DNA from: Tissierellales bacterium
GTDB taxonomy: Bacteria > Bacillota > Clostridia > Tissierellales > Sedimentibacteraceae
DNA: 64,000 nt
Assembly (NCBI GenBank): GCA_018433765.1
Contig: JAHDQO010000004.1
Location: 186,001-250,000 of the forward strand
Direction: 5' to 3'
Positions within the stretch are counted from its first letter, which is position 1; each line of letters opens with the position of its first letter. The notes below the pieces were generated by a model. The model worked only from the letters and a program-made list of their open reading frames with translations. It was not told the DNA's origin and did no database searches. Below, piece after piece: positions 3,884 through 60,695 of this stretch. Made by a program: the position numbers and the translations under genes.

Positions 3884-4885
<1,002 letters not shown>

Positions 4886-4936
4886 GTAGTAATACTTATG
4901 AACTAGAGTTGAGATATAGGAAGGAATGTGTAAAAT

Positions 4937-6592: not shown

Positions 6593-6741
6593 AAAGATAA
6601 AAGTGAAAAGATAAAAGTGAATAGTTGTGTGACAATTATATTTTATTAATTGAATTCTTTTAGTTCTAATTCACATAATAAAAAATTGCTTAAGCAATTT
6701 TAACTATAACTTTTAACTTTTTCACTCTTAATTTTTATCTT
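6590..6741. repeat. Palindromic intergenic repeat (AAAAGT-word type) inside the ilv operon
   Basis: AGATAAAAGTGAAAAGATAAAAG at the left is answered by the inverted words CTTTTAACTTTTTCACTC and TTTTTATCTT at 6711-6741, with a central palindrome AAATTGCTTAAGCAATTT at 6683-6700. The transcript could fold into a long hairpin between ilvD and ilvB. Confidence 0.6.
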
Positions 6742-6760
6742 AATTAAGAGGAGATTTATT

Positions 6761-8413
6761 ATGAAATTATCAGGATCACAAATACTATTAAAATGTTTAA
6801 GAGAAAATGATGTAGATACTATTTTTGGTTATCCGGGCGGAGCAGTAATACCATTATATGATGCTTTATATGATGAACTTGATTATTTTAAACATTTTAG
6901 ACCAGCCCATGAACAGCATATGGTTCATGCTGCTGATGCTTATGCAAGAACTACTGGAAAGGTTGGTGTAGTATTTGCTACATCAGGACCCGGAGCTACA
7001 AATACTATTACTGGCATAGCTACAGCTTATATGGATTCTGTACCTATGGTAATAATTACTGGTCAAGTTCCTAATATTCTGCTCGGAAAAGATTCTTTTC
7101 AAGAAATTGATATTACTGGTGTTACATTATCTATTACTAAACATAATTATTTAGTAAAAAGTGTTGAAAATCTCGAGAAGACAATAAAAGAAGCTTTATT
7201 AGTAGCTCAGGAAGGAAGACCCGGCCCTGTACTAGTTGATGTACCGAAAGATGTTTTTTTAGCTAATTATGAGTATAATAATATTGATGTTAATATAAAA
7301 GTAAAAAACCATATTCCAGATGATAATGATATAATGCAGGCAGTAAATCTTATAAATAATGCTAAAAAACCTGTTCTATATGCTGGTGGTGGAGTTAGAA
7401 TTTCAAAGTCAGATGACTTACTAGTTAAAATCATTGAAAAAAATCAAATACCTACAGTTAATAGTTTTATGGGTTTTGGAACTATATCTAGAGATCATAA
7501 ATTATCATTAGGTTTAGTAGGTATGCACGGAAATAAAGAAGCTAATCTAGCTGTGACTAAAAGTGATTTATTGATTGCTGTAGGAGCTCGTTTTAGTGAT
7601 AGAGTTATAGGTAAGCCTGATGAATTTGCACCAGAGGCAAAGATAATCCATATAGATATTGATAGCACAGAAATAGATAAAAACTCAAATAACTGTATAC
7701 CATTGATAGGAGATATGCAGCCTATACTTAGAAGTTTATTAGATAAAATAGAAGTGAGAGATAGATCTAAATGGCTTGAGACTATTAATTCTTTCAAAGA
7801 TAATAGTAATGATAATGTAAGTTTTAATCCCAAAAATATATTAGAAACAGCAAATAAATATTACAAAGAAAATACTATTATAGCAACAGATGTCGGACAG
7901 CATCAGATGTGGACGGGACAATTTTGGAAATTTAAAAAATCTTGTGAATTGGTTACTTCAGGAGGTTTAGGAACTATGGGTTATGGCTTGGGAGCTGCTA
8001 TTGGTGCCAAAATAGGTAACCCAGAAAAAGATGTTATTCTTATAACTGGAGATGGAAGTTTTAGAATGAACTGTTGTGAATTGACTACATTATCAAGGTA
8101 TAAGATTCCTGTTAAGATTATAATGATTAACAACCATACTCTTGGAATGGTAAGACAATGGCAGAGAATGTTTAGTAATGCAAGATATTCTGAAACTGAT
8201 ATTTATGATTCTGTAGATAATATAAAGTTAGTTGATTCATATGGTATAAAGGGATATAAAGTAGACAATTTAACTGATTTTAGAGAAGTACTTGAAAAAA
8301 CAAAAAATTTAAATGAATCTATATTTATAGAATGTATAATAAATCAAGATGATAGTGTCTATCCTATAGTACCACCCGGAAGACCAATAAACGAGTTGTT
8401 ATTAAATGGTTAA
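6761..8413 (+). CDS. ilvB: Acetolactate synthase large (catalytic) subunit
   Basis: TPP and FAD enzyme condensing pyruvate with pyruvate or 2-oxobutanoate. The catalytic glutamate is Glu51 in RPAHEQHMVHAADAYAR. The TPP/magnesium motif begins GDGSFRMNCCELTT and ends at the NN of MINNHTLGMVRQWQ. FAD-domain motifs such as GGGVRIS and GMHGNKEANLA are present. Length 550 is normal for a biosynthetic ALS. It is the last gene of ilvC-ilvD-ilvB and needs a small subunit for feedback control; the nearest candidate is the ACT protein at 3236-3466. Confidence 0.95.
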   Translation: MKLSGSQILLKCLRENDVDTIFGYPGGAVIPLYDALYDELDYFKHFRPAHEQHMVHAADAYARTTGKVGVVFATSGPGATNTITGIATAYMDSVPMVIITGQVPNILLGKDSFQEIDITGVTLSITKHNYLVKSVENLEKTIKEALLVAQEGRPGPVLVDVPKDVFLANYEYNNIDVNIKVKNHIPDDNDIMQAVNLINNAKKPVLYAGGGVRISKSDDLLVKIIEKNQIPTVNSFMGFGTISRDHKLSLGLVGMHGNKEANLAVTKSDLLIAVGARFSDRVIGKPDEFAPEAKIIHIDIDSTEIDKNSNNCIPLIGDMQPILRSLLDKIEVRDRSKWLETINSFKDNSNDNVSFNPKNILETANKYYKENTIIATDVGQHQMWTGQFWKFKKSCELVTSGGLGTMGYGLGAAIGAKIGNPEKDVILITGDGSFRMNCCELTTLSRYKIPVKIIMINNHTLGMVRQWQRMFSNARYSETDIYDSVDNIKLVDSYGIKGYKVDNLTDFREVLEKTKNLNESIFIECIINQDDSVYPIVPPGRPINELLLNG

Positions 8414-8466
8414 GGAAGTTGGCAAGTTGGAAGGTTGGAAAGTAGAAAAACAGGAGTAGAAATAAA

Positions 8467-8501
8467 AATAAGGTTATTTATATTTATAACCTTATTTTTT
8501 T
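8467..8501. terminator. Bidirectional terminator between ilvB and the hydrogenase operon
   Basis: AATAAGGTTAT and ATAACCTTATT form an 11-bp stem followed by T7 on the plus strand and by a T-rich tract on the minus strand. It serves the two convergent transcripts. Confidence 0.85.
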
Positions 8502-8518
8502 ATTTGTTAGTTTATATT

Positions 8519-8568
8519 GCTTTACGTTAGTAAAGCTACCTTAACTATACACTTTTATCTTTTATCTT
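8519..8568. repeat. Palindromic repeat core plus AAAAGT-type arm
   Basis: The 18-base core GCTTTACGTTAGTAAAGC lies at 8519-8536, followed by CACTTTTATCTTTTATCTTTAC words. It belongs to the same family as copies at 22230, 28061, 33797, 35358 and 42699. Confidence 0.65.
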
Positions 8569-10298
8569 TACACTTCATAGAGTTCTCTTTTGGCGTAATG
8601 TGTGTGGAGCAATTTGTGAGATTTGTGTCCTAGGGGTTCTCCTAAATATTCTTCGTACAGTTTAATTATTGCAGGATTTTTATGAGATTTTCTTATTAAT
8701 TTACTTTTATCTACATTGTATATGCCGTCCATTCTTTGTTTTTTGACTTCAATATTTCCTGGTATAGGCTGACCTCCGCCACCTATACATCCCCCCGGAC
8801 AAGCCATTATCTCAATAAAATGGTAATCGGCTTTTCCTTCATTAATCATATCTAGAATAATTTTTGCATTGTTTAATCCGTTAGCAACTGCAACTTTAAC
8901 ATTTAGATCACCGACTGGTATTTCTGCTTCTTTTATACCGTCTATTCCTCTGACAGTTGTTAGGTTAATATTCTTTAATTCGTTTCCAGTAACTATTTCA
9001 TATACCGTTCTTAAGGCGGCTTCCATAACTCCCCCTGTTGCACCAAATATAGCAGCAGCACCTGTAGTTATACCGAATGGATCATCAAAGTCTTTTTCTT
9101 CTATTTTATTTATATTAATTCCTGATTGGTGTACCATTCTTACTAGTTCTCTAGTTGTTAACACAAAATCTACATCTTGATAACCGCTGTCGTTCATTTC
9201 ATCTCTTATACATTCTGCTTTTTTAGCAGTACACGGCATTATTGAAACAACAACAATATTTTCAGGATTGATTTTGTATTTTTCAGCATAATAAGATTTT
9301 GCTAGTGCTCCAAACATTTGCTGGGGCGATTTACAAGTTGAAACATTTTCTAGTAACTCCGGATAAAAATATTCAACATATCTTATCCAACCCGGACTAC
9401 AGGAAGTCATCATTGGAAGTTTACCTCCATTTTTTATTCTATGGAGTAATTCGTTTCCTTCTTCAATGATGGTTAAATCAGCGGTGAAATTAGTGTCAAA
9501 TACTCTATCAAATCCTATTCTTTTTAAAAGAGAGACTATTTTACCTGTAACTATAGAGCCGGCATCAAATCCAAATTCTTCTCCTATAGAAACTCTAACA
9601 GCTGGAGCTACTTGAACTACAACGTGTTTAGATTTATCATCTAATACTTTCCATACGTTGTTAATATCATTTTTTTCATAAATAGCTCCAACTGGACATA
9701 CATTAATACACTGACCGCAGTATACACATGGAACATTATTTAATCCCTCTTCATAAGCTGGTGCAATTCTCATGTCATGACTTCTGTTAATATTATATAT
9801 AGCACCTACCCCTTGAACTTTGCTGCATACTTCAACACATCTTCCACATTTTATGCATTTACTGCCATCTCTAACTATACTAGGGTTACTATTATCTAAT
9901 GGAAGTATTTCTTCTACATTATCAAACCTTACTGAATCAATACCTAATTCCCTACTGATATTTTGCAGTTCACAATTATTATTTCTTATGCATGTTAGAC
10001 AGTTGCAGTTATGAGCTGCAAGAATAAGTTCAACTATTGCCTTTCGTGCTTCTCTAACTCTTTTTGAGTTTGTTTTAATAACCATACCTTGTGTCACAGG
10101 AGTACAGCAGGAAGGTTGAAGTCTAGGCTGACCTTCTACTTCCACAACACATACTCTACAGTTTCCTTTTAGCTCTTGGTCAGGATGATAACATAAGGTA
10201 GGTATATTAATATTTATTTTTTTACATGCTTCTAATATTGTTGTTCCTTTTTTTACACTTACGGCAACACCGTTTATAGTAATATTTACATTATCCAT
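8568..10298 (-). CDS. hndD: NAD(P)-linked [FeFe] hydrogenase, catalytic subunit (HndD type)
   Basis: Catalytic subunit of a tetrameric cytosolic hydrogenase. In order: an N-terminal plant-type 2Fe-2S domain with TLCYHPDQELKGNCRVC; the His/Cys cluster AHNCNCLTCIRNNNC; two 4Fe-4S motifs, CIKCGRCVEVC and CVYCGQCINVC; then the H-cluster domain with TSCSPGW, MPCTAKKAE and EIMACPGGCIGGGGQP; finally a small-subunit tail. Its 576 residues fit HndD/HydA of bifurcating enzymes. It overlaps the NuoF-like gene by 8 bases and is last in the operon. It would couple NAD(P)H, probably with ferredoxin, to H2 production or uptake; maturases HydEFG are not in the window. Confidence 0.93.
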   Translation of the reverse strand: MDNVNITINGVAVSVKKGTTILEACKKININIPTLCYHPDQELKGNCRVCVVEVEGQPRLQPSCCTPVTQGMVIKTNSKRVREARKAIVELILAAHNCNCLTCIRNNNCELQNISRELGIDSVRFDNVEEILPLDNSNPSIVRDGSKCIKCGRCVEVCSKVQGVGAIYNINRSHDMRIAPAYEEGLNNVPCVYCGQCINVCPVGAIYEKNDINNVWKVLDDKSKHVVVQVAPAVRVSIGEEFGFDAGSIVTGKIVSLLKRIGFDRVFDTNFTADLTIIEEGNELLHRIKNGGKLPMMTSCSPGWIRYVEYFYPELLENVSTCKSPQQMFGALAKSYYAEKYKINPENIVVVSIMPCTAKKAECIRDEMNDSGYQDVDFVLTTRELVRMVHQSGININKIEEKDFDDPFGITTGAAAIFGATGGVMEAALRTVYEIVTGNELKNINLTTVRGIDGIKEAEIPVGDLNVKVAVANGLNNAKIILDMINEGKADYHFIEIMACPGGCIGGGGQPIPGNIEVKKQRMDGIYNVDKSKLIRKSHKNPAIIKLYEEYLGEPLGHKSHKLLHTHYAKRELYEV

Positions 10299-11583
10299 AA
10301 ACTACTGCCCCCTTTTTTAGATTGCATATTCCTGCTCTACAAAACCCTTCTATATGCTCTTTATATTCTTCTTCAAAATATTTCATTGTAGTTAATAAAG
10401 CTGTTGGTGCAGATTGGCCTAATCCGCAAAGTGAAGTATCTTTCATTAACTCGCATATATCAACTAAAAGTTCTAAATCTCTATTTGAACCCTTACCCTC
10501 TATTATTCTATTCAAGATTTTGTTTATGTGCCTGTTTCCTTCTCTGCAAGGAGTACATTTACCACAACTTTCGTGTTTAAAGAATTCCATTGTAGTTTTA
10601 ACAAAATCTAATATACATATAGATTCATCTCCTACAAACATTGCACCTGAACCTAGACCTATACCAAGCTTATTAAGCTCATCAAAATCAATTTTTATAT
10701 CTAGCATTTCCGCAGGCAATACTGCTCCAGATGACCCGCCTAATTGAACAAATTTAATTTCTTTATCTGTTTCTACTCCTCCACATATTTCATTTATTAT
10801 TTCTCTTATAGTCATACCAAATTCTATTTCATAAACTCCTTTATTTGCGACACAGCCTGATATAGACAGAAGCTTTGTTCCACTGCTGGACTTAGTTCCG
10901 AACTTTTTATACTCTTCAGATCCAAGAGATATAATATAAGGTATATTTATTAAAGTTTCAACATTATTTACAAGTGTTGGTTTTCCCCACAAACCTTTAT
11001 TTGCAGTATATGGAGGTTTAAATCTTGACCTACCGTCATTACCTTCAATTGATTCTATTAATGCAGTTTCTTCTCCACATACATACGCTCCGGCACCTGT
11101 TCTTACTTCAATATCAAAACATAAATCTGTTCCTAAAATATTCTTACCTAAAAAACCTTCCTCTTTAAGTATGTTAACTGCTTTTTTTAGCAAATCTTTA
11201 GTTTGAGGATATTCACCTCTTATATAAATATATCCATAACTTGCTCCAACTGCTAAAGCAGAGATTATCATTCCCTCAATTATTTGAAAAGGACATCCAT
11301 CTAGCAATATTTTATCTTTAAATGTTCCCGGTTCTCCTTCATCGGCATTGCATATTATATATTTGATATCACTCTTTTCTGAAGCTACAAATTGTAGCTT
11401 AAGACCTGTTGGAAAGGCTGCTCCGCCTCTACCTTTTAAATTAGAAGCTCTTACTTCATCAATGATCTGTTCAGTTTTCATTTTAAATAATGCTTTTTCC
11501 AGAGCTTCAAACCCTCCATTTTCTTTATAATCTTTTAATGATAATGGACTTATTTTTCCACATAATTTAGAAACTAAAATCAC
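10291..11583 (-). CDS. NADH-oxidising hydrogenase subunit (NuoF/HndC-like), short form
   Basis: Carries the NADH-binding GRGGAAFPTG, the FMN-binding NADEGEPGTFKD and the GAGAYVCGEETAL segment. A 4Fe-4S site follows, made by SCGKCTPCREG and SLCGLGQSAP. The protein ends soon after (GFCRAGICNLKKG), so the C-terminal two-cluster ferredoxin domain found in many HndC/HydB subunits is absent, as is most of the N-terminal thioredoxin-like domain. At 430 residues it resembles NuoF more than the roughly 600-residue HydB. It sits between the NuoE-like and catalytic genes with overlaps on both sides. I infer the diaphorase subunit role. Confidence 0.88.
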   Translation of the reverse strand: MILVSKLCGKISPLSLKDYKENGGFEALEKALFKMKTEQIIDEVRASNLKGRGGAAFPTGLKLQFVASEKSDIKYIICNADEGEPGTFKDKILLDGCPFQIIEGMIISALAVGASYGYIYIRGEYPQTKDLLKKAVNILKEEGFLGKNILGTDLCFDIEVRTGAGAYVCGEETALIESIEGNDGRSRFKPPYTANKGLWGKPTLVNNVETLINIPYIISLGSEEYKKFGTKSSSGTKLLSISGCVANKGVYEIEFGMTIREIINEICGGVETDKEIKFVQLGGSSGAVLPAEMLDIKIDFDELNKLGIGLGSGAMFVGDESICILDFVKTTMEFFKHESCGKCTPCREGNRHINKILNRIIEGKGSNRDLELLVDICELMKDTSLCGLGQSAPTALLTTMKYFEEEYKEHIEGFCRAGICNLKKGAVVYG

Positions 11584-24961: not shown

Positions 24962-26356
24962 ATGAAAAATCTTTGGAGTGGAAGATTTACAAAAGGTATG
25001 GACAAATTTGTTGAGAAATATAATGCTTCAATAGAATTTGACAAAATATTATATGAGTATGATATAGACGGCAGTATTGCTCATGTAACTATGCTTGCTA
25101 ATCAAAATATAGTTATAGATGAAGAAAAAGATTTAATAATTAAAGGACTTGAAAAAATAAAAGAAAGAATGAATAATAATGAAATAGAGTTCAATACTGC
25201 TGATGAAGATATACACATGACAGTAGAAAAACTTCTGATTAAAGAAATAGGAGATGTAGGAAAGAAACTTCATACAGCTAGAAGTAGAAATGACCAGAAT
25301 GTATTAGATGAAAAACTTTATCTAAAAGATAAAACTTTAGAAACGATAGGAAACCTAATAGATTTAGCAGAAGTTTTATTGAAAAAAGCTGATGAAGAAA
25401 TAGAAACAATAATGCCTGGATTCACGCATTTACAGCATGCACAACCTGTAACAGCAGGGTTTTATTATATGGCTTATTTTCAAAAATTTAGAAGAGATAT
25501 TGAAAGATATGTATCTTCATTTGAAAGACTAGATTATAATCCATTAGGTGCTTGTGCTTTAGCAGGTACAACATTACCTATAGACAGGCATATTACTAAA
25601 GAATTGTTGGGATTTGCAAATGTTACAGAAAATGCTATGGATACTGTTAGTGATAGAGACTTTATTTTAGAATATATATTTAATGCTTCATTATGTATGA
25701 CGCATTTGAGCAGATTTGCTGAAGAATTTATTATACAAAATTCACAAGAATATGCATTTATAGACATAGATGACAGCTTTTGTACAGGGAGCAGTATAAT
25801 GCCTCAAAAGAAAAATCCTGATATAGCAGAGCTTGTAAGGGGAAAATCAGGTAGGGTTTATGGAAGTTTAATAACATTATTAACAGTTATGAAAGGAACA
25901 CCATTATCTTTTAACAAGGATTTTCAAGAAGATAAAGAAGCATTATTTGATTGTGTAAATACATTAAATGCAAGTATATATATATTTGCAAGGATGCTGG
26001 AAAAAACTAAAATTAATAAAGAAAATGTTGCGAATCAATTAAAAAAAGGATTTATAAATTCAACAGATATTGCAGAGTATTTTGTTCAAAAAGGTATGCC
26101 TTTTAGGGAGGCACATGAAGTAGTTGGAAATATGGTTAAGTACTGCGAAATTAATAATAAAAATGTTGAAGAGCTTAATGAAAAAGATATAAAAGCATTG
26201 GGAATTGTCATGGATGTAAAAGATATAAAGTTATTTGAATATAGTAAATGTGTAGAGAATAGAAAGTCCTTTGGCGGAACTTCACCTATTGATGTAAGAA
26301 GACAAATAGATGTCGGAATTAATTTTATTAACAATTCGAAGAAAGGTATGAGGTAA
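24962..26356 (+). CDS. argH: Argininosuccinate lyase family enzyme
   Basis: 464 residues, full length for ArgH. Signature segments are LWSGRFTKGMDK at the start, TARSRNDQ, FTHLQHAQPVTAG and the flexible catalytic loop GSSIMPQKKNPD. The family eliminates fumarate from succinyl adducts: argininosuccinate in ArgH itself, other N-succinyl compounds in EDDS-lyase-type relatives. No argG, argF or other arginine genes are present. It lies instead in a row with a transporter, a racemase, fumarase and malic enzyme. Normal ArgH is the default call; a catabolic fumarate-releasing lyase is a serious alternative. Confidence 0.8.
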   Translation: MKNLWSGRFTKGMDKFVEKYNASIEFDKILYEYDIDGSIAHVTMLANQNIVIDEEKDLIIKGLEKIKERMNNNEIEFNTADEDIHMTVEKLLIKEIGDVGKKLHTARSRNDQNVLDEKLYLKDKTLETIGNLIDLAEVLLKKADEEIETIMPGFTHLQHAQPVTAGFYYMAYFQKFRRDIERYVSSFERLDYNPLGACALAGTTLPIDRHITKELLGFANVTENAMDTVSDRDFILEYIFNASLCMTHLSRFAEEFIIQNSQEYAFIDIDDSFCTGSSIMPQKKNPDIAELVRGKSGRVYGSLITLLTVMKGTPLSFNKDFQEDKEALFDCVNTLNASIYIFARMLEKTKINKENVANQLKKGFINSTDIAEYFVQKGMPFREAHEVVGNMVKYCEINNKNVEELNEKDIKALGIVMDVKDIKLFEYSKCVENRKSFGGTSPIDVRRQIDVGINFINNSKKGMR

Positions 26357-26370
26357 GAGTAATACTACCT

Positions 26371-26455
26371 CAGGCTTATGAGAAACTGGAATTTAGTTGT
26401 TATTGCCTCAATCACGAATGATTAGGAGTAAGAGTTTCTCATAAGCCTGTCTTTA
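26371..26455 (+). terminator. Long hairpin after the lyase gene
   Basis: CAGGCTTATGAGAAACT (26371-26387) and its exact complement (26433-26449) form a 17-bp stem with a 45-base loop, then CTTTATTT. It could act as a terminator, but the loop is unusually long, so a structured small RNA or a miniature element is also possible. Confidence 0.5.
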
Positions 26456-27973: not shown

Positions 27974-28415
27974 AATGAAAATTAACCACGGAAGAACACA
28001 GAAAAACACGGAAAACAAAAATAAACGAAAAACGAGGAAGTAGTAACTAGTAACATGGAAGCTTTACTTATGTAAAGCAAAATAAGATAAAAGTTAAAAG
28101 TGTAAAGATAAAAATTAAGGTAGCTTTACTAGCGTAAAGCAGTTTAAACGAGAAACGAGGAAGTAGTAACGAGAAACATGGAAGCTTTACTTATGTAATA
28201 CAAAATAAGATAAAAGTTAAAAGTGTAAAGATAAAAATTAAGGTAGCTTTACTAGCGTAAAGCAATTTAAACGAAAAACGAGGAAGTAGTAACTAGTAAC
28301 ATAGAGGTTTTATTCGTAAAGCATTAAAAATAAAATTAATAAATTTTTCATTAGAAAAATTTAAACCATGTTACTCGTTAATCGTTATTCATCTCTCGTT
28401 TTACATCAAAGAAGG
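27974..28415. repeat. Repeat block with a 123-base tandem duplication
   Basis: It starts with an ACCACGGAAGAACACAG-type word. Palindrome cores follow at 28061-28078, 28123-28140, 28184-28200 (decayed) and 28246-28263. Cores one and three, and two and four, are each 123 bases apart, and the whole unit from GAGGAAGTAGTAAC onward is duplicated, with a third partial copy near 28275-28322. The end carries inverted TTACTCGTTAATCG words just before the malic enzyme ribosome binding site. No coding frame is seen. Confidence 0.8.
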
Positions 28416-28429
28416 GAAGGATAAAAGTT

Positions 28430-29611
28430 ATGGATTATAATAAAATGGCGTTGGATATGCACAAAAAATTTAAAGGAAAAATTGAAGTAATTAGTAAAGT
28501 TAAAGTAGAAAACAAAGATGATTTATCTACAGCTTATACTCCGGGTGTAGCAGAACCGTGTAGAGAGATACATAAAGATAAAGAAAAAGTATATGAATAT
28601 ACATCAAAATCAAATATGGTTGCTGTTGTTACAGATGGTACAGCAGTTTTAGGACTAGGTGACATTGGTGCTCATGCTGCACTTCCTGTAATGGAGGGTA
28701 AAGCAGTATTATTCAAAACTTTTGCAAATGTTGACGCTTTTCCAATATGTTTAAATACTAAAGATGTTAATGAAATAGTTAGAACTGTTAAGTTATTAGA
28801 ACCTGTATTTGGTGGAATAAATCTTGAAGACATAGGTGCTCCAAGATGCTTTGAAATAGAAGAAAGATTAAAAGAAGAGTTAGATATTCCAGTATTTCAT
28901 GATGATCAGCATGGTACTGCTGTAGTAACTACTTCTGCTATTATAAATGCACTTAAAGTAGCAGGTAAAAAATTAAATGAAGTAGAAGCAGTTATTAACG
29001 GATCAGGAGCAGCAGGAATAGCAATAGCTAAGCTATTAATTAGTATAGGAATTAAAAATGTAGTAATGTGTGATAGTAAAGGTATTATATCTAATGATAG
29101 AAGTGATCTTAACCAATCAAAACAAGATATATTAAGTATAACAAATAAAAATGATGAAACAGGAAAACTTTCTGATGCAATGAAGGATAAAGATATATTT
29201 ATAGGTGTATCAGCTCCGGGAGTAGTAACAAAAGAAATGATAAAAACTATGAATGATAAATCAATTGTATTTCCAATGGCTAACCCTACACCTGAAATTA
29301 TGCCAGAAGAAGCAAAATCAGGTGGTGCATATATAATAGGTACAGGAAGATCAGATTTTCCAAATCAAGTTAATAATGTTCTTGCTTTTCCCGGTATTTT
29401 TAGAGGAGCATTAGATGTAAGAGCAAAAGAAATAGATGAGGAAATGAAAATTGCAGCTGCATATGCAATAGCAAATACTGTAAAAGAAAATGAGCTATCA
29501 AAAGATTTTATACTACCAAAGGCATTTGATAAAAAAGTATCCGAAAATGTTGCAGAAGCAGTTAGAAAAGCAGCAATAAAAAGTGGAGCAGCTAAAACAG
29601 TTAATAGTTGA
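28430..29611 (+). CDS. NAD(P)-dependent malic enzyme
   Basis: 393 residues, the short bacterial form (about 390-410). N-terminal TAYTPGVAEPCREI, GDIGAHAALPVMEGKAVLF and FHDDQHGTAVVT (metal binding) precede the NAD domain INGSGAAGIAIAKLL. It decarboxylates malate to pyruvate. With the fumarase upstream it completes fumarate to malate to pyruvate, a likely drain for fumarate released by the lyase at 24962. The ribosome binding site is AAGAAGGGAAGG. Confidence 0.92.
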   Translation: MDYNKMALDMHKKFKGKIEVISKVKVENKDDLSTAYTPGVAEPCREIHKDKEKVYEYTSKSNMVAVVTDGTAVLGLGDIGAHAALPVMEGKAVLFKTFANVDAFPICLNTKDVNEIVRTVKLLEPVFGGINLEDIGAPRCFEIEERLKEELDIPVFHDDQHGTAVVTTSAIINALKVAGKKLNEVEAVINGSGAAGIAIAKLLISIGIKNVVMCDSKGIISNDRSDLNQSKQDILSITNKNDETGKLSDAMKDKDIFIGVSAPGVVTKEMIKTMNDKSIVFPMANPTPEIMPEEAKSGGAYIIGTGRSDFPNQVNNVLAFPGIFRGALDVRAKEIDEEMKIAAAYAIANTVKENELSKDFILPKAFDKKVSENVAEAVRKAAIKSGAAKTVNS

Positions 29612-29612
29612 T

Positions 29613-29800
29613 AGTATTGCAAACGAGTAATTAGTAACATTGTAAACGAATAATTAGTAACTAGTAACGAGTAATAATGTAAAAATTTTCTTAGAAAATT
29701 TATTTTGAATTATTATTAATGTTTTTATTTTATAAAAACTATCCATATTACTAGTTACTCGTTACTAGTTTCTCATTTACGTTAGTAAAGTATTATAAAT
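29613..29800. repeat. Palindromic repeat, GAGTAAC/AGTAAC-word type
   Basis: ACGAGTAATTAGTAAC words on the left are answered by ATTACTAGTTACTCGTTACT at 29748-29767 and a degraded core TTTACGTTAGTAAA near 29777-29790. It lies between convergent malic enzyme and dnaC-like genes. Confidence 0.65.
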
Positions 29801-33752: not shown

Positions 33753-33756
33753 TCAA

Positions 33757-33846
33757 TAAAACTAGGAACGAGAAATGAGTAACGAATAACATGGAAGTTT
33801 TACTGATGTAAAACGATTAAACTAATTTTGAGTAATGAGTAACACT
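33757..33846. repeat. Palindromic repeat, GAGTAAC-word type
   Basis: Core GTTTTACTGATGTAAAAC (33797-33814), preceded by GAAATGAGTAACGAATAACATGG and followed by GAGTAATGAGTAACAC. This copy lacks the inverted right arm. Confidence 0.65.
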
Positions 33847-35282: not shown

Positions 35283-35515
35283 GATATATGTAAATTTAAA
35301 ATTAATGAGTAACGTAAAACAATAAGGAATGAGTAACGAGGAACTAGAAACATGGTAGTTTTACTTACGTAAAACAATAAGGAATGAGTAACGAGAAACT
35401 AGTAACTAGGAACATGGTAGTTTTACTTACGTAAAACTTTTATAATTAAATTTTCTTTTAAAATTTAAACGATATTACTCGTTACTAGTTACTCATTTCT
35501 CGTTTAGTCAAGAAG
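35283..35515. repeat. Palindromic repeat block with two cores upstream of walR
   Basis: Cores at 35358-35375 and 35420-35437 (GTTTTACTTACGTAAAAC) are each preceded by GAGTAACGAG..AACATGGTA. An inverted arm TTACTCGTTACTAGTTACTC lies at about 35473-35495. This is the best complete copy: left arm, core and right arm can form one long hairpin directly before the walR ribosome binding site. Confidence 0.75.
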
Positions 35516-53535: not shown

Positions 53536-53722
53536 GCACATTAAATTTAATATAGACTATAAGAAAATAATGATTTTATCATTATTTTTTTATTTTATAA
53601 GTGGTATTTTTATAAAGGAAATTATATAAATATGGCGAATATAACATAAAATGTAATAATAATACAAAATAAGTAATAAAAATGTTATATTTACAAAAAT
53701 ATTAAAATATAAAATATTATAG

Positions 53723-53950
53723 AAAAACTAGGTCTATTTTACATATATTTATTAATTAAAAAAAGGAGGTGTATTCATGGAATATAAAAAACCAGAAATC
53801 AATGAAATTTCTATAAGTATAAGTACTGACAAATGGTTAGTTAGTCTTGCACCAGTAGCAGCAAAATAATATTTTTGTATATAATTTAAAAATTAAATAA
53901 GAATTGTTTTAGTTTATCATTGACATTATAAAAAAATAGACCTAGTTTTT
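53723..53950. repeat. Perfect 18-bp inverted repeat flanking the precursor gene
   Basis: AAAAACTAGGTCTATTTT at 53723-53740 recurs as its exact reverse complement at 53933-53950, with 192 bases between that contain the whole precursor gene. The left arm lies 21 bases before the AGGAGG site, the right arm 64 bases after the stop. It could form a long-range RNA stem, bind a regulator, or be the ends of a small element. Confidence 0.75.
53777..53869 (+). CDS. RiPP precursor peptide (30 residues)
   Basis: ATG at 53777 follows a strong AAAAGGAGGTG site; stop TAA 53867-53869. The N-terminal part MEYKKPEINEI has a Y-x-x-P-x-(I/L) pattern like the leader motif bound by PqqD-like recognition elements in lasso and related peptides. 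An alternating ISISIS stretch follows, then a C-terminal part DKWLVSLAPVAAK that may be the core. There is no Cys, so sactionine or lanthionine bridges are excluded. A Lys-Trp pair, small hydrophobics and a Pro are available for radical C-methylation or carbon cross-links. The gene is followed by leader-binding, radical SAM, protease and exporter genes. The leader/core boundary is inferred. Confidence 0.72.
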   Translation: MEYKKPEINEISISISTDKWLVSLAPVAAK

Positions 53951-53997
53951 AAATCACTATGTCTATACCAAAGAATTTAAATATAGGAGGCGTAATT

Positions 53998-55092
53998 ATG
54001 CCATCTGTAAATGTCAATAATCATTCAATAATACGAGTAATATGGGATATAACATCAAAATGCAATTTAAATTGTAAACACTGTTATGCAGCAACCCTGC
54101 AAAATGAAGAAGAACTATCTTTTGATGAAATACACAAAGTAATATCAAATTTATCTACGTACGGAGTAGAAAATTTATATTTCTTTGGTGGAGAACCCCT
54201 TATAAGAAAGGATATTTTTAATATTATAGAATACTGTACCGAATGTAATATAAATACTTTCTTATCAACTAATGGATTACTATTTAAAGATAGTCTATAT
54301 GAACTAGAAAAATCAGGTTTAAAAGGTGTTGGAATAAGTATAGAAAGTACTTATCCTCACAAATACAAACAAATTCGAGGATTAGATGCTTTTAACTTTG
54401 TAGAGACAGCCATAGAATCATTATCTAATTCTAGTATTGAACATAGAGCTCTTAATTGTGTAATAATGGAATATAATTTAGATGAAATGCTGGATTTCAT
54501 CAAAATGTTTGAAAAATACAATCTTACTAGTCTTAACTTTGATTTAATAGCTAATGGTGGAAATGCATTAGAAAATCAAACTCTATGCAAACAGGTTTCT
54601 CCTAATGCTCTTTTAAATGAACTAGACAAAGTTTTTGAATATTTATTTAAAAACAAGCATCTCATAGATAAAATATCTTTTGATATACTGCCTCCTAAAG
54701 CGTTGACTTATTTCTCAACAAAATATAATTTAGATATCAAATTAAGTAAAGTGATTCATTTTAATCCATACAGTTGTTTCTATATCGATCTAAAAGGAAG
54801 AGCATATGGGTGTAGAGCATTAACAGATTATTTTAACTATAAAGAATGTAAAGAACATATAAGAGGAATTAGTTTAATAGATAATTCATTAGAGAATATC
54901 TTACAGTCAGATGAGTTTTATAATCAATATTGTTTACTTGGACCTAAAAAAATTGAATCTGGTATATGCAAAGATTGCGAATATTTATATAAAGAATGCT
55001 ATCCATGTCCTATAACAAGTAACGATAACATATCATATGACTGTAGTGATTATCCAAAAAGTTTGATATGTGAAGAAATATTAAAGTTATGA
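53998..55092 (+). CDS. SPASM-domain radical SAM peptide maturase
   Basis: 364 residues from ATG 53998, chosen for its AGGAGG site at 53985-53990. The radical SAM cluster motif is CNLNCKHC within WDITSKCNLNCKHCYA, followed by GGEPL. The C-terminal SPASM/twitch region is Cys-rich: NPYSCFYIDLKGRAYGCRAL, GICKDCEYLYKECYPCP and a final CSDYPKSLIC, enough for two auxiliary clusters. Relatives install carbon-carbon, carbon-sulfur or other bonds, or epimerise residues, in ribosomal peptides. Because the precursor here has no Cys, carbon-carbon bonding or another non-sulfur change is likely. First enzyme gene of the operon. Confidence 0.9.
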   Translation: MPSVNVNNHSIIRVIWDITSKCNLNCKHCYAATLQNEEELSFDEIHKVISNLSTYGVENLYFFGGEPLIRKDIFNIIEYCTECNINTFLSTNGLLFKDSLYELEKSGLKGVGISIESTYPHKYKQIRGLDAFNFVETAIESLSNSSIEHRALNCVIMEYNLDEMLDFIKMFEKYNLTSLNFDLIANGGNALENQTLCKQVSPNALLNELDKVFEYLFKNKHLIDKISFDILPPKALTYFSTKYNLDIKLSKVIHFNPYSCFYIDLKGRAYGCRALTDYFNYKECKEHIRGISLIDNSLENILQSDEFYNQYCLLGPKKIESGICKDCEYLYKECYPCPITSNDNISYDCSDYPKSLICEEILKL

Positions 55093-55117
55093 TTGAATTT
55101 AATAATGGAGGTTAATT

Positions 55118-55399
55118 ATGAATGATAACTGTAAATATAAAATCGAGAGTAAAGTAAGAATTAGACAGCAGGGAGATGAATACAGTGTTTTTAATGGTAA
55201 AAACGCTAGATTTTTTACAACAAATGAAATTGGTCAGTTTGTGCTGAAAAAGTGTGATGGTGATAATACAGTCAATGATATAATTGATGATTTAATTAAT
55301 TCATGTGTAAATGTACCTTCTCGCGAAATAATACAAAATGATGTAGAGGAAATAATTAATCGGTCGATTAAATTTGACATTCTGAATGAGGTTAAATAA
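55118..55399 (+). CDS. PqqD-like RiPP recognition element
   Basis: 93 residues. It starts with strands YKIESKVRIRQQGDEYSVFN, then helices with FTTNEIGQFVLKKCDGDNTVNDIIDDL, the winged-helix pattern of PqqD. Such proteins bind the precursor's leader and hand it to the radical SAM enzyme. An AATGGAGG site precedes it, and its stop codon overlaps the next start (TAATG). Its presence as a separate protein strengthens the RiPP interpretation of the short peptide at 53777. Confidence 0.88.
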   Translation: MNDNCKYKIESKVRIRQQGDEYSVFNGKNARFFTTNEIGQFVLKKCDGDNTVNDIIDDLINSCVNVPSREIIQNDVEEIINRSIKFDILNEVK

Positions 55400-56715
55400 T
55401 GGCTGATGTATGTATAATTAATGCAAGTTACTATTCGCATAATCCTAATATTCCAATGGGTCCATTAATATTAGTTAAAAATTTAAAAAAAAATGGTTAT
55501 TCAGTTAATTTCATTGATTATCAAAATTTTTCAGACAACGATATAGGAACAACTAAACATTTTAAATCTATTATAGAAAACTGTAATGCTAAATTCATTG
55601 GCATCAGTGTTTTTTCAAATTCCCTGCCTTTAGTTATTAATGCTATAAAACATTATAAATGTAATAATGATAATTTTGTTTTTTTAGGAGGTCCTGGTGT
55701 AGCAGGTATAGAAAAAGAGTTACTTAATATTTCTCCAATTGATGCTATTGTATCGGGAGAAGGTGAAGAAACTGTAGTTGAGTTAATATCGGCACTTAAT
55801 AAGAGTAATGATTTAAAGGATATTAAAGGCATTATATATAAATCATCAAATGGTAAAATAACAGTAAATACTCCAAGACCTATATTAAAGATTCCAGATT
55901 ATTATCCTGACTATTCATGTATAGATTTGAAAGAATATAATAATAAGGCAATTATTATTACTTCTAGAGGATGTCCCTTTAAATGTACTTTTTGCTCTAA
56001 ACCTATTTGGAAAGATAAAGTTACATATAGAACAATGGATAATGTTTTTGAAGAATTACGAATTTTAAAAAAACTTAAGGTTGAAAAACTACATATTTGT
56101 GATGATACATTTATTTATAATAAGGAAAGAGTATTTGAATTTTGTGAACGGTATATTAAAGAAGATATCAATATCCCTTGGGAATGTACAGGAAGAATTG
56201 GATTGATGGATGAAAAACTGCTAGAGATCTTAAAAAATGCTGGATGTTCTGCATTATTTTTAGGTATAGAAAGTAGTTCAGATACGATTTTAAATTATTT
56301 TAATAAGAAAATAAATAATAAATTAATTAGTGAACAATTAAAACTAGTAAAAAAATATATTTCTATGATGTATACCTCATATATTTGGGGTCATCCCGAA
56401 GAAACACTAGAAGATTTCATAGATACATATATGTCATACGTTTACGACTCTTCACAACCAAACATGAGATCATCAATTACATTGGCTACACCATTTTTAG
56501 ATACAAAGTTATATGAAGACTATAAAAACTATTTAATGTATTTAGAAAATAATACGTATAATGGTTCTAGTATACATACAAATACTAGAAAAGACAAAGA
56601 AATTATGGATATGATAAAAGAAAATGCTAGCATGTTTCCTTCTTTTTATTATTTAGATAATAAAGACTTCAAAGAAAAGTTAAATTATATTAAATTATTT
56701 AAAAAGACTGGATAA
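55399..56715 (+). CDS. Cobalamin-binding radical SAM enzyme, copy 1
   Basis: 438 residues. The N-terminal B12-binding domain (about 1-140; PMGPLILVKNLKKNGY, FLGGPGVAG, AIVSGEGEETVVELI) is followed by a radical SAM domain with TSRGCPFKCTFCSKP, and a C-terminal region ending FPSFYYLDNKDFKEKLNYI. Such enzymes usually transfer methyl groups to unactivated carbon, but ring contractions and cyclisations are known. It is a paralogue of the next gene (same C-terminal FPSFYY motif). Translationally coupled to the PqqD-like gene. Confidence 0.88.
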   Translation: MADVCIINASYYSHNPNIPMGPLILVKNLKKNGYSVNFIDYQNFSDNDIGTTKHFKSIIENCNAKFIGISVFSNSLPLVINAIKHYKCNNDNFVFLGGPGVAGIEKELLNISPIDAIVSGEGEETVVELISALNKSNDLKDIKGIIYKSSNGKITVNTPRPILKIPDYYPDYSCIDLKEYNNKAIIITSRGCPFKCTFCSKPIWKDKVTYRTMDNVFEELRILKKLKVEKLHICDDTFIYNKERVFEFCERYIKEDINIPWECTGRIGLMDEKLLEILKNAGCSALFLGIESSSDTILNYFNKKINNKLISEQLKLVKKYISMMYTSYIWGHPEETLEDFIDTYMSYVYDSSQPNMRSSITLATPFLDTKLYEDYKNYLMYLENNTYNGSSIHTNTRKDKEIMDMIKENASMFPSFYYLDNKDFKEKLNYIKLFKKTG

Positions 56716-56746
56716 AAATCAAAAAAATGAATTGGGAGTGATAAAA

Positions 56747-58132
56747 ATGTCTAATATTACATTAATTAATGCTGGATTAATATTACGTGACCCTATACCT
56801 CCAATAGGACCTTTGATTTTAGCATCAGTTTTAAGATCAAACGGGCATAACGTTACCTTCAGAGATTTTCAAACACATAACGTTAAAAATAGATTATTTT
56901 TTTCTACATTTGAGGATTTTATTGACACAGATGATCAAATAATAGGCTTTTCAGTTTTTTGTACAAGCTTACCATTGGTACTAGGGACTATAACTAAAAT
57001 TAAGCAAAAAAACCCAAATAAAATAGTTATATTAGGAGGAGCAGGAGTTAACGAAATTCAGATTGAAATCATGTCGCATTTTCCAGTAGATTACATATTG
57101 TATGGCGAAGGTGAAGAATCAATCGTAGAACTATTAGAGGCAATAGAAGCTGGAGAAGGATATGACAAAATCAAAGGTTTAGTTTATAGAGAAGGTAATC
57201 AAATCATTAAAAATGCTCCAAGAGATAGGTTATTAGATTTATCTAGTGTTCCATTACCCGCTTATGATTTAATAGATTTGAGCAAATATGGGAAAATAGC
57301 TTATTTATTGACTTCCCGTGGATGTCCTTTTGGATGTAAGTTTTGCGCAACAAATTCAATATGGCATAGAATAATGGCTTACAGATCTATAGAGAGTGTT
57401 ATAGAAGAATTAACTGTCATTTCGAAGCAGTGTGATTTTGAGCAGATAGCTATTATTGACGATACTTTTGTTCTAGATAAAGAACGTTCTAAAAATTTAT
57501 TAACTCGAATTAGAGAAAATGGATTTTTTCAGCCATTTTCATGTAATGGAAAAATATCTTTAATGAATGAAGAATGGTTAAAGATCTTAGACGAAAAGGG
57601 ATGCAATCACATATTTTACGGTGTAGAAGCTGGAAATGATACAATACTTAACATCATAGATAAAGGTCATACTATTGAACAGGCTTTAACTATAATAAAA
57701 CAAACAAGTGATTATATACCTAGCATTAGAGCATCGTTTATATGGGGTTATCCTTTTGAAACTATAGATGATTTCTATGATTTAATCGAGATATTATATG
57801 AACTGATGGCCATTAAAGAGGTGAAAACTCAACTTTCACTATGTTCTCCAATACCTGGTTCAGAACTGCATTTAATGTATGGAAGCAATATTGATTTTAG
57901 AATAGATACTAACTCAAGAGCAGGAGGATTACCTGTAGAGGAAGACTTAGAAGATTATGTTGAACTTCAAAAACTTATTTTATTATATCCAGATGTATTT
58001 CCATCTTTTTATTATTTTAAACAAGATAATTTTGAAGAAAAGTTGAACATAATAAAATCAGTTGATTGGATTTATAATCAAAACAAATTAAAAAAATATA
58101 AAGATAAGATTGTAAAGGCAGGTCAAGTATGA
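56747..58132 (+). CDS. Cobalamin-binding radical SAM enzyme, copy 2
   Basis: 461 residues from ATG 56747, preceded by TTGGGAGTG; an in-frame TTG at 56732 overlaps that site. The B12-binding domain (about 1-150; PPIGPLILASVLRSNGH, ILGGAGVNE, YILYGEGEESIVELL) and radical SAM motif TSRGCPFGCKFCATN are complete. The C-terminus FPSFYYFKQDNFEEKLNII mirrors copy 1. The two copies differ around the second loop (KPIWKDKVTYRT against NSIWHRIMAYRS), which suggests different target residues. Its stop overlaps the next start. Confidence 0.88.
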   Translation: MSNITLINAGLILRDPIPPIGPLILASVLRSNGHNVTFRDFQTHNVKNRLFFSTFEDFIDTDDQIIGFSVFCTSLPLVLGTITKIKQKNPNKIVILGGAGVNEIQIEIMSHFPVDYILYGEGEESIVELLEAIEAGEGYDKIKGLVYREGNQIIKNAPRDRLLDLSSVPLPAYDLIDLSKYGKIAYLLTSRGCPFGCKFCATNSIWHRIMAYRSIESVIEELTVISKQCDFEQIAIIDDTFVLDKERSKNLLTRIRENGFFQPFSCNGKISLMNEEWLKILDEKGCNHIFYGVEAGNDTILNIIDKGHTIEQALTIIKQTSDYIPSIRASFIWGYPFETIDDFYDLIEILYELMAIKEVKTQLSLCSPIPGSELHLMYGSNIDFRIDTNSRAGGLPVEEDLEDYVELQKLILLYPDVFPSFYYFKQDNFEEKLNIIKSVDWIYNQNKLKKYKDKIVKAGQV

Positions 58133-59004
58133 TGATGGTAAAGAAATCTAAATTACTTGAAAATATAGCTTCAATACTAATTGATAAGATATGGGGCAAA
58201 TTTGTTGGACTCCTGTTTATTGTGATACCTTCTATTTTATTTATAGTAGGTTTAGAAATAAACTCACTATGGCAAGTTATTTTGCTTGTACCGCTATTTT
58301 ATATTTCTTTATTTATTGGTGGATTAACTCACGAATTAGGTCATTATTTGATGTTAAAAAATTTAAGGTGTCCATCTAAAATTAAAGTTTTTAAAAATAG
58401 CCACTCTAAACTAATCTTCTTTAATATGAGAACTCAAGTTATTAATGACACTCCTATGCTTTCTAGTAAATATATACTTATAAAAAGAGCTATTGCAGGA
58501 CTTTTAAGTAATTATGTATTTTCTATTATTTTAACTGTTCTAGGGGTGATATTAGATTTAAATATTTTATTTTTTATTGCAGCAATAGAAGGTTTTAGTG
58601 CTCATAGTGCAACTTCACTAGCATCTTTAAACAGTGATACAGATGTGTTTAATTTGAAATATGCTTTAGATATTAGAGATGAAATTAAGATAAACAAAAT
58701 AAAAATTGATAAAGAATTTAAAATAAACATTTGTGTAAAATTAGTTAATAATAATTCTAATTATTGGATTATATATAAGGGACCAGAAATTTTAAGTATA
58801 ACAGGTGATTTTCTAACTTTTGATTTAGACGATAGTGTTTTATTCTTATGTAGAAACGATACAAAAAAACAAGAGATAAAATTACATATTACTTTGCCTT
58901 GTGAAATAGAAGAAGACCAGTATATTAAATTTTATACTATATCAGGATGTAAAATACAAAATGAAAGTGAGGATTTAGTTTATGACAAATACTACGCCTG
59001 CTAA
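58129..59004 (+). CDS. Membrane zinc metalloprotease (M50-like), candidate leader peptidase
   Basis: 291 residues. Two hydrophobic segments (about 23-65) lead to GGLTHELGHYLML, an HExxH zinc motif at the membrane, then a further pair (about 118-160). A possible third ligand lies in SLNSDTDVFN. The last 100 residues are a soluble beta-rich domain (KINICVKLVNNNSNYWIIY and on). Site-2-protease-like enzymes occur in RiPP clusters where they release the mature peptide. I infer leader cleavage coupled to export; coupled ATG overlaps both neighbours. Confidence 0.75.
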   Translation: MMMVKKSKLLENIASILIDKIWGKFVGLLFIVIPSILFIVGLEINSLWQVILLVPLFYISLFIGGLTHELGHYLMLKNLRCPSKIKVFKNSHSKLIFFNMRTQVINDTPMLSSKYILIKRAIAGLLSNYVFSIILTVLGVILDLNILFFIAAIEGFSAHSATSLASLNSDTDVFNLKYALDIRDEIKINKIKIDKEFKINICVKLVNNNSNYWIIYKGPEILSITGDFLTFDLDDSVLFLCRNDTKKQEIKLHITLPCEIEEDQYIKFYTISGCKIQNESEDLVYDKYYAC

Positions 59005-60208
59005 ATTTATTAAAAATAAAAATCTTATTTTATTATTTACAGGAAACTTAGTCTCTCAATTTGGTAATTGGCTGTATTTTTTAGCAATTATATTCTTAGT
59101 ACAAAATTTAACTAATTCTTATGCAACTACTGGATTTGCACTAGCCATAAATTCATTACCTAAAGTGCTACTAAGTAATGTTGCAGGCATTGTATGTGAT
59201 AGATTTTCTAGAAAAAAAATACTTATATATTCTGATATAATAAATGGTATATTATCTTTATACATTGGTATAAAATTACTAACAGTTGGTCTTAATATAT
59301 ATGAAGTATATATAGTTGCATTTCTTATTGGAATTGGAAGAACTTTTTTTAATCCAGCATTTAAAGCAAGCATTCCAAACATAGCAGCTGCTGATGAGTT
59401 AAATAGAGTTAATTCATTGTTTAATTCATCAACTAGTATAACAGATATTTTAGGGCCTATATGTGGAGGAGTAATAATTACTATCTTAGGACTACCACTA
59501 GCTTTTATAATAAACGGAATTTCTTTTTTAATCTCTGCAATCAATGAAATTTTTGTAGTTATTCCTCAAGAATTTAATAATCAAGGTAAATTTAACATTT
59601 TTTTTATAAATAAGGGTGTGAAATTAGGTTATATACAAATATATAATAATAAAATTTTACTTATTATTATTAGTATATTTTCAATAATGACATTCTTTGC
59701 GGCGCCAATGATATTGTTTTTTAAAGAATTGAGTTCTAGTTATTACAATGTTGGATATATTGGGTTTTCCTTTCTTATTATAGCAGATGGTATAGGAGTT
59801 TTAGCAGCACATATATATCTTATAATTAAACCAAATAATAAATATCAAAAACAACTATTATGCCTTTTTCCTATGATAGGAGGTATTACATTGTTGATAA
59901 TTGCTAACTTACACAACTTTGCTTTGGCAATAACAATACTAATGCTACAAGGAATAGTAAGCGGTTTTGGTGAAATAAGTTTAATGACTATTATACAAAA
60001 AGAGACTCCTGATAAAAACAGAGGAATGGTATTTAGTGCGTATGCTTTTATATCAGCAGTTTTACATATTTTGTCACTGGTAATAGCAGGAGTAATAATG
60101 GAATTTGTAAGTATAAATATAATTATTTCTGTCTGCGGCATTCCATTAATTATTGGAAGTTTTATATTGTTTTCTAAGTTTAAAAAGCATTATAAATCTC
60201 AATATTAA
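58982..60208 (+). CDS. MFS transporter, candidate peptide exporter
   Basis: 408 residues with about 12 membrane segments. It has the MFS loop-2 motif as GIVCDRFSRKKILIYSD, and GNLVSQFGNWLYFLA at the start, as in the enterobactin-exporter-like/DHA3 group. It overlaps the protease gene by 23 bases and is the last gene before a terminator, so it most likely exports the finished peptide or gives self-resistance. Confidence 0.85.
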   Translation: MTNTTPAKFIKNKNLILLFTGNLVSQFGNWLYFLAIIFLVQNLTNSYATTGFALAINSLPKVLLSNVAGIVCDRFSRKKILIYSDIINGILSLYIGIKLLTVGLNIYEVYIVAFLIGIGRTFFNPAFKASIPNIAAADELNRVNSLFNSSTSITDILGPICGGVIITILGLPLAFIINGISFLISAINEIFVVIPQEFNNQGKFNIFFINKGVKLGYIQIYNNKILLIIISIFSIMTFFAAPMILFFKELSSSYYNVGYIGFSFLIIADGIGVLAAHIYLIIKPNNKYQKQLLCLFPMIGGITLLIIANLHNFALAITILMLQGIVSGFGEISLMTIIQKETPDKNRGMVFSAYAFISAVLHILSLVIAGVIMEFVSINIIISVCGIPLIIGSFILFSKFKKHYKSQY

Positions 60209-60266: not shown

Positions 60267-60695
60267 TTATTTTAAAGTAATGTACCTTTTATCATAATAA
60301 AGCATAAATTGTTCTTTGTTATTGGATACATTTCTTTTTATGGAACATTCGTAAATACCCTTATTTAAGTCATAAACTTTGCTTACAAATTCATCATTAT
60401 TTAAAGAGTATTCATCAATTACTTCATCATTTTCTTTAATTATCTTAAAAAAAACTTTACCAGAGCTTATTTCAGCATTGTGTGACAGGCATATTGTAGT
60501 AGGTTTTTCTACGTTAAGCATAAATTCCTCTGTACCTTCCATTTTGATACTTTTTAAATTTGATTGATGAAATCCTATATCAAATAAGTGAACTATGAAA
60601 TAACTTATGCTAAATATAAGAAATATTGTAGTCAAAAGTAATATAGTATATTTAACTTTTCTATTTAATATCATATCAATATTTATTCCTTTCAT
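60267..60695 (-). CDS. Hypothetical membrane-anchored protein
   Basis: 142 residues. One N-terminal membrane segment (YTILLLTTIFLIFSISYFIV) is followed by an extracytoplasmic beta-rich domain (MLNVEKPTTICLSHNAEISS, VFFKIIKENDEVIDEYSL). I do not recognise the family. It is the last gene of the minus-strand GntR-ABC operon, 36 bases after the permease, so it may be an accessory of that transporter. Confidence 0.55.
   Translation of the reverse strand: MKGINIDMILNRKVKYTILLLTTIFLIFSISYFIVHLFDIGFHQSNLKSIKMEGTEEFMLNVEKPTTICLSHNAEISSGKVFFKIIKENDEVIDEYSLNNDEFVSKVYDLNKGIYECSIKRNVSNNKEQFMLYYDKRYITLK

Follow-up and report, generated by a model that had tools for sequence, protein, structure and literature searches.

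A predicted peptide operon with a short cysteine-free precursor and two cobalamin-binding radical SAM enzymes in a Tissierellales bacterium

What might a bacterium make from a 30-residue peptide without cysteine whose gene stands ahead of one SPASM and two cobalamin (B12)-binding radical S-adenosylmethionine (SAM) enzymes? This question is raised by seven genes at 53777-60208 (+) in a 64 kb stretch of contig JAHDQO010000004.1 from a Tissierellales bacterium (the window, by which we mean the whole stretch analyzed). A sequence-only reading of this DNA had proposed that they direct the synthesis of a new ribosomally synthesized and post-translationally modified peptide (RiPP), and we likewise infer a new peptide product with carbon–carbon or C-methyl changes. 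Judged by sequence, this is a real, conserved RiPP-type operon outside every family tested, and it quite probably makes a RiPP whose family we could match to no described one, by way of SPASM chemistry, two cobalamin-dependent steps, cleavage, and export.

A seven-gene operon and its counterpart in a second genome

The features of the window operon are the following.

53723-53740 (no strand): left arm of an inverted repeat, 18 nt, a perfect match to the right arm, with the precursor gene between the arms
53777-53869 (+): precursor gene, 30 residues, MEYKKPEINEISISISTDKWLVSLAPVAAK
53933-53950 (no strand): right arm of the inverted repeat, 18 nt, 192 nt from the left arm
53998-55092 (+): radical SAM/SPASM enzyme with CNLNCKHC, 364 residues, probable peptide maturase (Pfam Radical_SAM, 2.7e-22)
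55118-55399 (+): PqqD-like peptide chaperone, a stand-alone RiPP recognition element (RRE), 93 residues (Pfam PF05402, 1.9e-9)
55399-56715 (+): B12a, cobalamin-binding radical SAM enzyme with CPFKCTFC (Pfam Radical_SAM and B12-binding)
56747-58132 (+): B12b, cobalamin-binding radical SAM enzyme with CPFGCKFC, ancient paralog of B12a (Pfam Radical_SAM and B12-binding)
58132-59004 (+; ATG at 58129 also possible): membrane protein with HELGH, M50-like and probably a peptidase (sub-threshold Peptidase_M50)
58982-60208 (+): MFS transporter, probable exporter (Pfam, 5.2e-37)

Every part that the sequence-only reading had named here (short open reading frame (ORF), SPASM enzyme, PqqD-like protein, tandem B12 pair, HELGH protein, and MFS transporter) is present by motifs and Pfam, the latter above cut-off for Radical_SAM, B12-binding, PqqD, and MFS. 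Its description of genes joined by overlaps or short gaps was borne out as well, with overlaps of 1 nt between PqqD and B12a, 4 nt between B12b and the M50-like gene if the latter starts at 58129, and 23 nt between the M50-like and MFS genes. The SPASM ORF opens at 53959, and its best start is the ATG at 53998, which bears a ribosome-binding site; we use the SPASM label on the basis of that earlier naming, the C-terminal cysteines, and matches to SPASM-type NCBIfam models. The GC content of the operon is 26.7%, compared with 28.2% for the window. As proposed, the 30-residue precursor has a strong ribosome-binding site, AGGAGG lying 7 nt upstream of its ATG; sites combining AGGAGG with a start codon number 25 on both strands of the window, the precursor's among them, and some are intragenic.

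All seven genes were found together once more, through a search with B12b, in a genome of the same phylum and another class (G788, locus L092).

4833-6098: MFS transporter
6187-6270: ORF of 27 residues, ortholog of the precursor gene
6387-7499: SPASM enzyme
7538-7816: PqqD-like protein
7830-9197: B12a
9175-10527: B12b
10547-11434: M50-like protein

The MFS gene comes first in this operon and last in that of the window. In both, the B12 genes are flanked by PqqD and the M50-like gene, overlapping their neighbors or lying no more than 31 nt from them. Identity between the window and G788 proteins is 30% for SPASM, 34% for PqqD, 36-38% for B12a, 43% for B12b (402 bits), and 32% for the M50-like protein, and the two MFS proteins match at 231 bits.

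The G788 ORF, MKYAKPVLREVVVTLTADKWLISIKAE, has its own strong ribosome-binding site. Identical residues occupy 11 of 30 columns of the precursor pair (including Y3, K5, P6, E10, D18-K19-W20-L21, and S23), and a local alignment of 24 gap-free residues reaches a BLOSUM62 score of 72, compared with 46 for the best shuffle (0 of 20,000 as good). Because the orthologous operon holds a short ORF in the same place with a score so far above shuffles, the precursor ORF goes beyond chance. The sequence-only reading had suggested looking for this frame beside the enzymes in other genomes, and had named homologous clusters without a conserved short peptide as the outcome that would tell against it; the sole homologous cluster found has such a peptide, so that a short precursor gene conserved beside modifying enzymes, the general mark of a RiPP operon, is present in two operons. 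The window precursor consists of a leader (MEYKKPEINEISISIS) with a YxKP motif, a conserved DKWLVS core, and a variable LAPVAAK tail, and the two precursors share the YxKP motif and a DKWL(V/I)S core and differ in their C-terminal tails. The YxxP pattern resembles leaders that PqqD-type domains bind in other RiPPs. Neither precursor contains cysteine, and therefore thioether links within the peptide are ruled out, the core cysteine expected of a sactipeptide or ranthipeptide being absent. A motif search of the loci for further short precursors recovered the window precursor (in the window, L001, L072, L079, and L080) and the G788 precursor; five other matches (L014, L033, L038, L092 at 14094, and L094) were judged implausible as precursors.

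We searched for B12b in 249 genomes from the order and in samples of 391 from the class and 398 from the phylum (overlapping sets, the phylum being covered in part). There was no match in the 248 other genomes of the order at E 1e-50, and at 1e-45 there were matches in 2 of 390 other class genomes, neither carrying the operon, and in 3 of 397 other phylum genomes, namely G788 with the operon and two without its other genes. Within the class of G788, which is the only sampled genome of its order, six other sampled genomes gave no match at 1e-50. Relatives of the M50-like protein were absent at 1e-6 from the 390 other class genomes, and those of the SPASM enzyme occurred at 1e-27 in one of them (G486); in the family, SPASM matches at 1e-20 occurred in 8 of 26 other genomes, every one below 95 bits. 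Among 48 loci from the SPASM scan of genome contigs, some of them short, none had a match to the precursor, PqqD, M50-like, or MFS protein (phmmer, E 1e-4), and the two best (L009 and L010) each adjoin further SPASM genes. Of three scans of viral contigs, the first gave no relative, the second 21 weak loci, and the third 2. Plasmids held no SPASM match for either ortholog and no DNA match to the operon, and B12b matched 21 plasmid records and its ortholog 3, with identity below 60% throughout. The G788 operon has a GC content of 50.8%, compared with 57.0% and 60.9% in its flanks. The history of the operon may be one of transfer followed by adaptation, or of old presence with frequent loss.

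Several more distant candidates were rejected as relatives. The cassette of G486 (SPASM match of 105.7 bits; L074, G486:C164) is a different one, in which three SPASM enzymes are joined by a single B12 radical SAM enzyme; ABC transporter genes and a PqqD-like protein are present by eye, and we identified no precursor. In G273 (L075), the B12 enzyme (172.5 bits) and an RRE-like SPASM enzyme are neighbors, and between the two, at about 9800-9905 (-), lies a short cysteine-rich ORF (MFEPEYMEVEASCSDCLNCAVCVTFPG...); by eye this is another, different peptide system combining B12 and SPASM enzymes. The B12 enzymes of G323, G725, and G792 are distant and their contexts are other. No precursor, PqqD, M50-like, or MFS match was found at E 1e-3 in L074, L075, L076, L093, or L094.

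The enzymes and the membrane protein

We compared the seven window proteins, the product of the next gene (60267-60695, -), and six G788 proteins (without the MFS transporter) with NCBIfam at E 0.1, considering the best 25 of 78, 31, and 40 matches for the window SPASM and B12 enzymes and the best 25 for three G788 proteins. The window precursor, the window M50-like protein, and the next gene's product had no match. For the SPASM enzyme, the solved structures nearest by sequence are SkfB, tetraether lipid synthase, and MoaA. The PqqD-like protein is an RRE by its PF05402 match, and its binding of the leader is predicted. PADLOC matched the SPASM enzyme to viperin and each B12 enzyme to PDC-M51A, matches that we discounted as reflecting the similarity of radical SAM proteins in general.

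In a tree of 16 B12 radical SAM proteins, the four operon enzymes form one clade (100/99), within which the B12a pair has support of 98/96 and the B12b pair 88/89, the latter under the program's starred level (16 rows). A stretch late in the sequence, SRAGGLPV, is common to the B12b orthologs and absent from B12a. Because the B12a and B12b pairs are each orthologous, the duplication most likely predates the split of the lineages, and the retention of both copies since then suggests that B12a and B12b have two different tasks. Among NCBIfam models, ApyD (NF050148, cut-off 750 bits) scores highest for three of the four enzymes, far below cut-off in each case (142 bits for window B12b, 157.6 and 161 for the G788 enzymes), with HpnJ second for G788 B12b (126 bits); window B12a ranks PhpK (151.6 bits) and BchE (145.7) ahead of ApyD (125.7). 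The RiPP C-methyltransferase model TIGR03975 (cut-off 281.85) gives 63.0 and 113.7 bits in the window and 54.1 and 68.5 in G788. The solved structures nearest both B12 enzymes are 9ccb, followed by AprD4, OxsB, and CysS.

Both M50-like orthologs contain HELGH and a later GDTDV or SDTDV, which by eye we liken to LDG, presumably the later Asp-containing motif expected of peptidase family M50. The window protein scores 15.3 bits against Pfam Peptidase_M50 (PF02163; gathering score 27.2, E 0.013), and its G788 ortholog has weak matches, far below cut-off, to daptide and YydH/LiaK protease models (E 0.037 and 0.099).

Elsewhere, the window's genome encodes another peptide system, of a different kind (L078, G000:C11:282000-298000), at 9263-9421, 11097-11255, 9458-10849, and 7303-9114 (all -). 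Its two ORFs of 52 residues each (with the starts as listed) end in NSYYICDPCGVAPH and NSYWVCDPCMRGGM; its SPASM enzyme is PapB-like (221.5 of 340 bits), and its B12 radical SAM enzyme is nearer ApyD (294 of 750 bits).

The inverted repeat, a proposed pathway, and its alternatives

The precursor gene of the window lies inside a perfect 18-nt inverted repeat, a pair of which only 0.005 are expected per 64 kb under a third-order Markov null. The genome lacks a third copy of the arm with at most one mismatch (the next best has two), and the arm is therefore not a repeat family. In folding, the window stretch surpasses every one of 200 shuffles (z -3.54). The G788 stretch, in which an inverted repeat with 14 complementary bases out of 16 is similarly placed, folds no better than shuffles (z -0.17), its best fold using a local terminator-like hairpin. 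Flank–flank duplex energies give z -2.38 (full) and -2.18 (90-nt upstream) for the window and -2.30 for G788, with one of 13 control genes at -3.93; these pairing statistics are modest, and a conserved RNA stem between window and G788 is unsupported. A promoter-like pair at 53690-53718 would put the transcript start at about the left arm, although it is weak evidence, because such matches are rarer in this region (37) than in shuffles (mean 57.1). The repeat may be an RNA element separating precursor from enzyme expression, or it may bound an invertible segment; in the open-access literature we found no case of invertible elements with peptide clusters. In other parts of the window, a perfect 17-nt inverted repeat with 45 nt between its arms (26371-26449) lies just after an ORF at 24962-26356, argininosuccinate lyase by eye. 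Dispersed intergenic repeats with GAGTAACGAGTAAC-like units (28017-28327, 29611-29674, 33753-33843, and 35316-35440) have reverse-complement-like copies nearby (28356, 29733, and 35460) and look like a small repeat element family, and three T-box leaders (Rfam RF00230; 2314-2539 -, 2894-3149 +, and 3579-3793 +) precede genes that are by eye branched-chain amino acid enzymes.

We propose the following pathway. A precursor of 27-30 residues would be made from the conserved gene observed in both operons, and the PqqD-type RRE, as its family suggests, would hold the N-terminal half, in which YxKPxxxE is followed by a stretch with many beta-branched residues. The SPASM enzyme would abstract hydrogen within the T/A-D-K-W-L-(V/I)-S core, most likely leaving, by analogy with streptide and WGK, a carbon–carbon link that involves Lys and/or Trp. 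B12a and B12b, as separate orthologous lines, would differ in the cobalamin-dependent change that they make, which is most likely a single C-methylation per enzyme at unactivated core carbons. Going by the conserved gene set, the M50-like membrane protein would cut off the leader, perhaps along with the variable tail, and export of the product would fall to the MFS transporter.

Three other explanations compete with a modified, exported peptide. The peptide could be a scaffold out of which D-K-W is cut to become a small molecule that serves as redox cofactor or signal or binds metal, as with PQQ and mycofactocin; the very short precursor, the stand-alone PqqD, the SPASM enzyme, and a small conserved part followed by differing tails are in line with this, while the MFS transporter in both operons suggests a secreted product, and, radical SAM enzymes aside, Pfam identifies none of the seven window genes as encoding an oxidase, glycosyltransferase, or dehydrogenase. 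We consider excision improbable. That the short ORF is the leader peptide of an attenuator, with enzymes that act on another substrate, we regard as very unlikely: its Trp codon, the perfect repeat around it, the strong window fold, and the G788 repeat with its terminator-like hairpin would suit such a role, but 24 residues align without gaps and share YxKP and DKWLxS, which is more than a Trp codon, a PqqD-type chaperone implies a peptide substrate, and the G788 stretch folds like its shuffles. There is equally little likelihood that the B12 enzymes belong to a non-peptide pathway (lipid, porphyrin-like, or phosphonate) and merely adjoin a small SPASM peptide system. The PhpK and BchE scores of window B12a and the HpnJ score of G788 B12b lean that way, set against the tight placement of the B12 genes between PqqD and the M50-like gene in both operons and the top rank of ApyD for the other three enzymes; a grouping with non-peptide enzymes, which the sequence-only reading had named as contrary evidence, is thus not seen for those three, and window B12a is neither placed nor excluded.

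Several observations also weigh against a new RiPP with the steps proposed above. No NCBIfam cut-off is passed by any of the 13 operon proteins scanned, among the matches listed, and the top scores of the SPASM enzyme there, to MoaA and NirJ-type models, are far below cut-off. Two operons are known, and a single comparison sets the core boundaries. The protein is assigned to M50 by its HELGH and by matches below threshold, and its predicted structure is poor (mean predicted local distance difference test score 46.9). B12 radical SAM reactions include non-methylations (PMC10635010). With these points in mind, we still favor the RiPP pathway, and its fullest form is one that we offer as speculation and think rather unlikely, namely a new RiPP class in which a cysteine-free D-K-W-L-x-S core in a peptide of about 30 residues receives a SPASM carbon–carbon link at Lys/Trp and two different C-methylations, one per B12 paralog, from a precursor gene that the 18-nt repeat sets off as a segment under separate control or even capable of inversion.

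The gene set is complete, small, and conserved, would turn a very short precursor into a peptide by unusual radical chemistry, and comes with two orthologous precursors that already indicate which residues matter. If two divergent B12 enzymes and one SPASM enzyme act on about eight conserved residues, it would be a compact system for site choice by B12 radical SAM enzymes.

Comparison with known systems

The sequence-only reading knew of no characterized family with exactly this gene set and so short a precursor, and this held up: no NCBIfam cut-off is passed among the matches listed, and no description of the combination was found in titles and abstract openings of the open-access literature. 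The cluster may be listed in the supplementary files of a large SPASM-neighborhood survey (PMC9062424).

Known systems each share some of these features. The SynChlorMet cassette includes the PqqD-like ScmD, which ranks first among NCBIfam models for the window PqqD (37.9 of 100 bits), whereas lasso-peptide PqqD models outscore ScmD for the G788 protein; by its model names the cassette has two SPASM enzymes, and it is not known to include B12 enzymes. Epipeptide (Yyd/Epe) and daptide clusters are, by model names, RiPP clusters with an HExxH membrane protease, from which the operon differs in the weakness or absence of the M50 matches described above; we know of no B12 enzymes in epipeptide clusters. 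PQQ (PqqA-PqqD-PqqE) and mycofactocin, which has a PqqD-type chaperone, are alike in a small precursor, such a chaperone, and a SPASM enzyme, and differ in lacking the two extra B12 enzymes found here; the window SPASM enzyme scores 68.6 of 381.35 bits against PqqE and 84.5 of 265 against the mycofactocin maturase, and its PqqD 24.9 of 46 against the PqqD model. PqqD in PQQ synthesis is a separate protein (PMC8326336). The ApyD system of Burkholderia, which yields peptides with C-terminal beta-amino-alpha-keto acids, is likewise a RiPP cluster, and its enzymes include a B12 radical SAM C-methyltransferase; ApyD beta-C-methylates a Tyr of its precursor and contains the RRE itself (PMC10635010), and window B12b reaches only 142 of 750 bits. 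Streptide and WGK (tryglysin) are alike in a short precursor, a SPASM enzyme, and Lys and Trp as substrate residues, and Lys-Trp carbon–carbon links are described for both (PMC8326336). The operon described here differs from them in WgkB (NF050035) scores of 80.9 (window) and 78 (G788) of 650 bits, a WgkC score of 18.1 of 110 bits for the window PqqD, two extra B12 enzymes, and a Lys and Trp that are adjacent.

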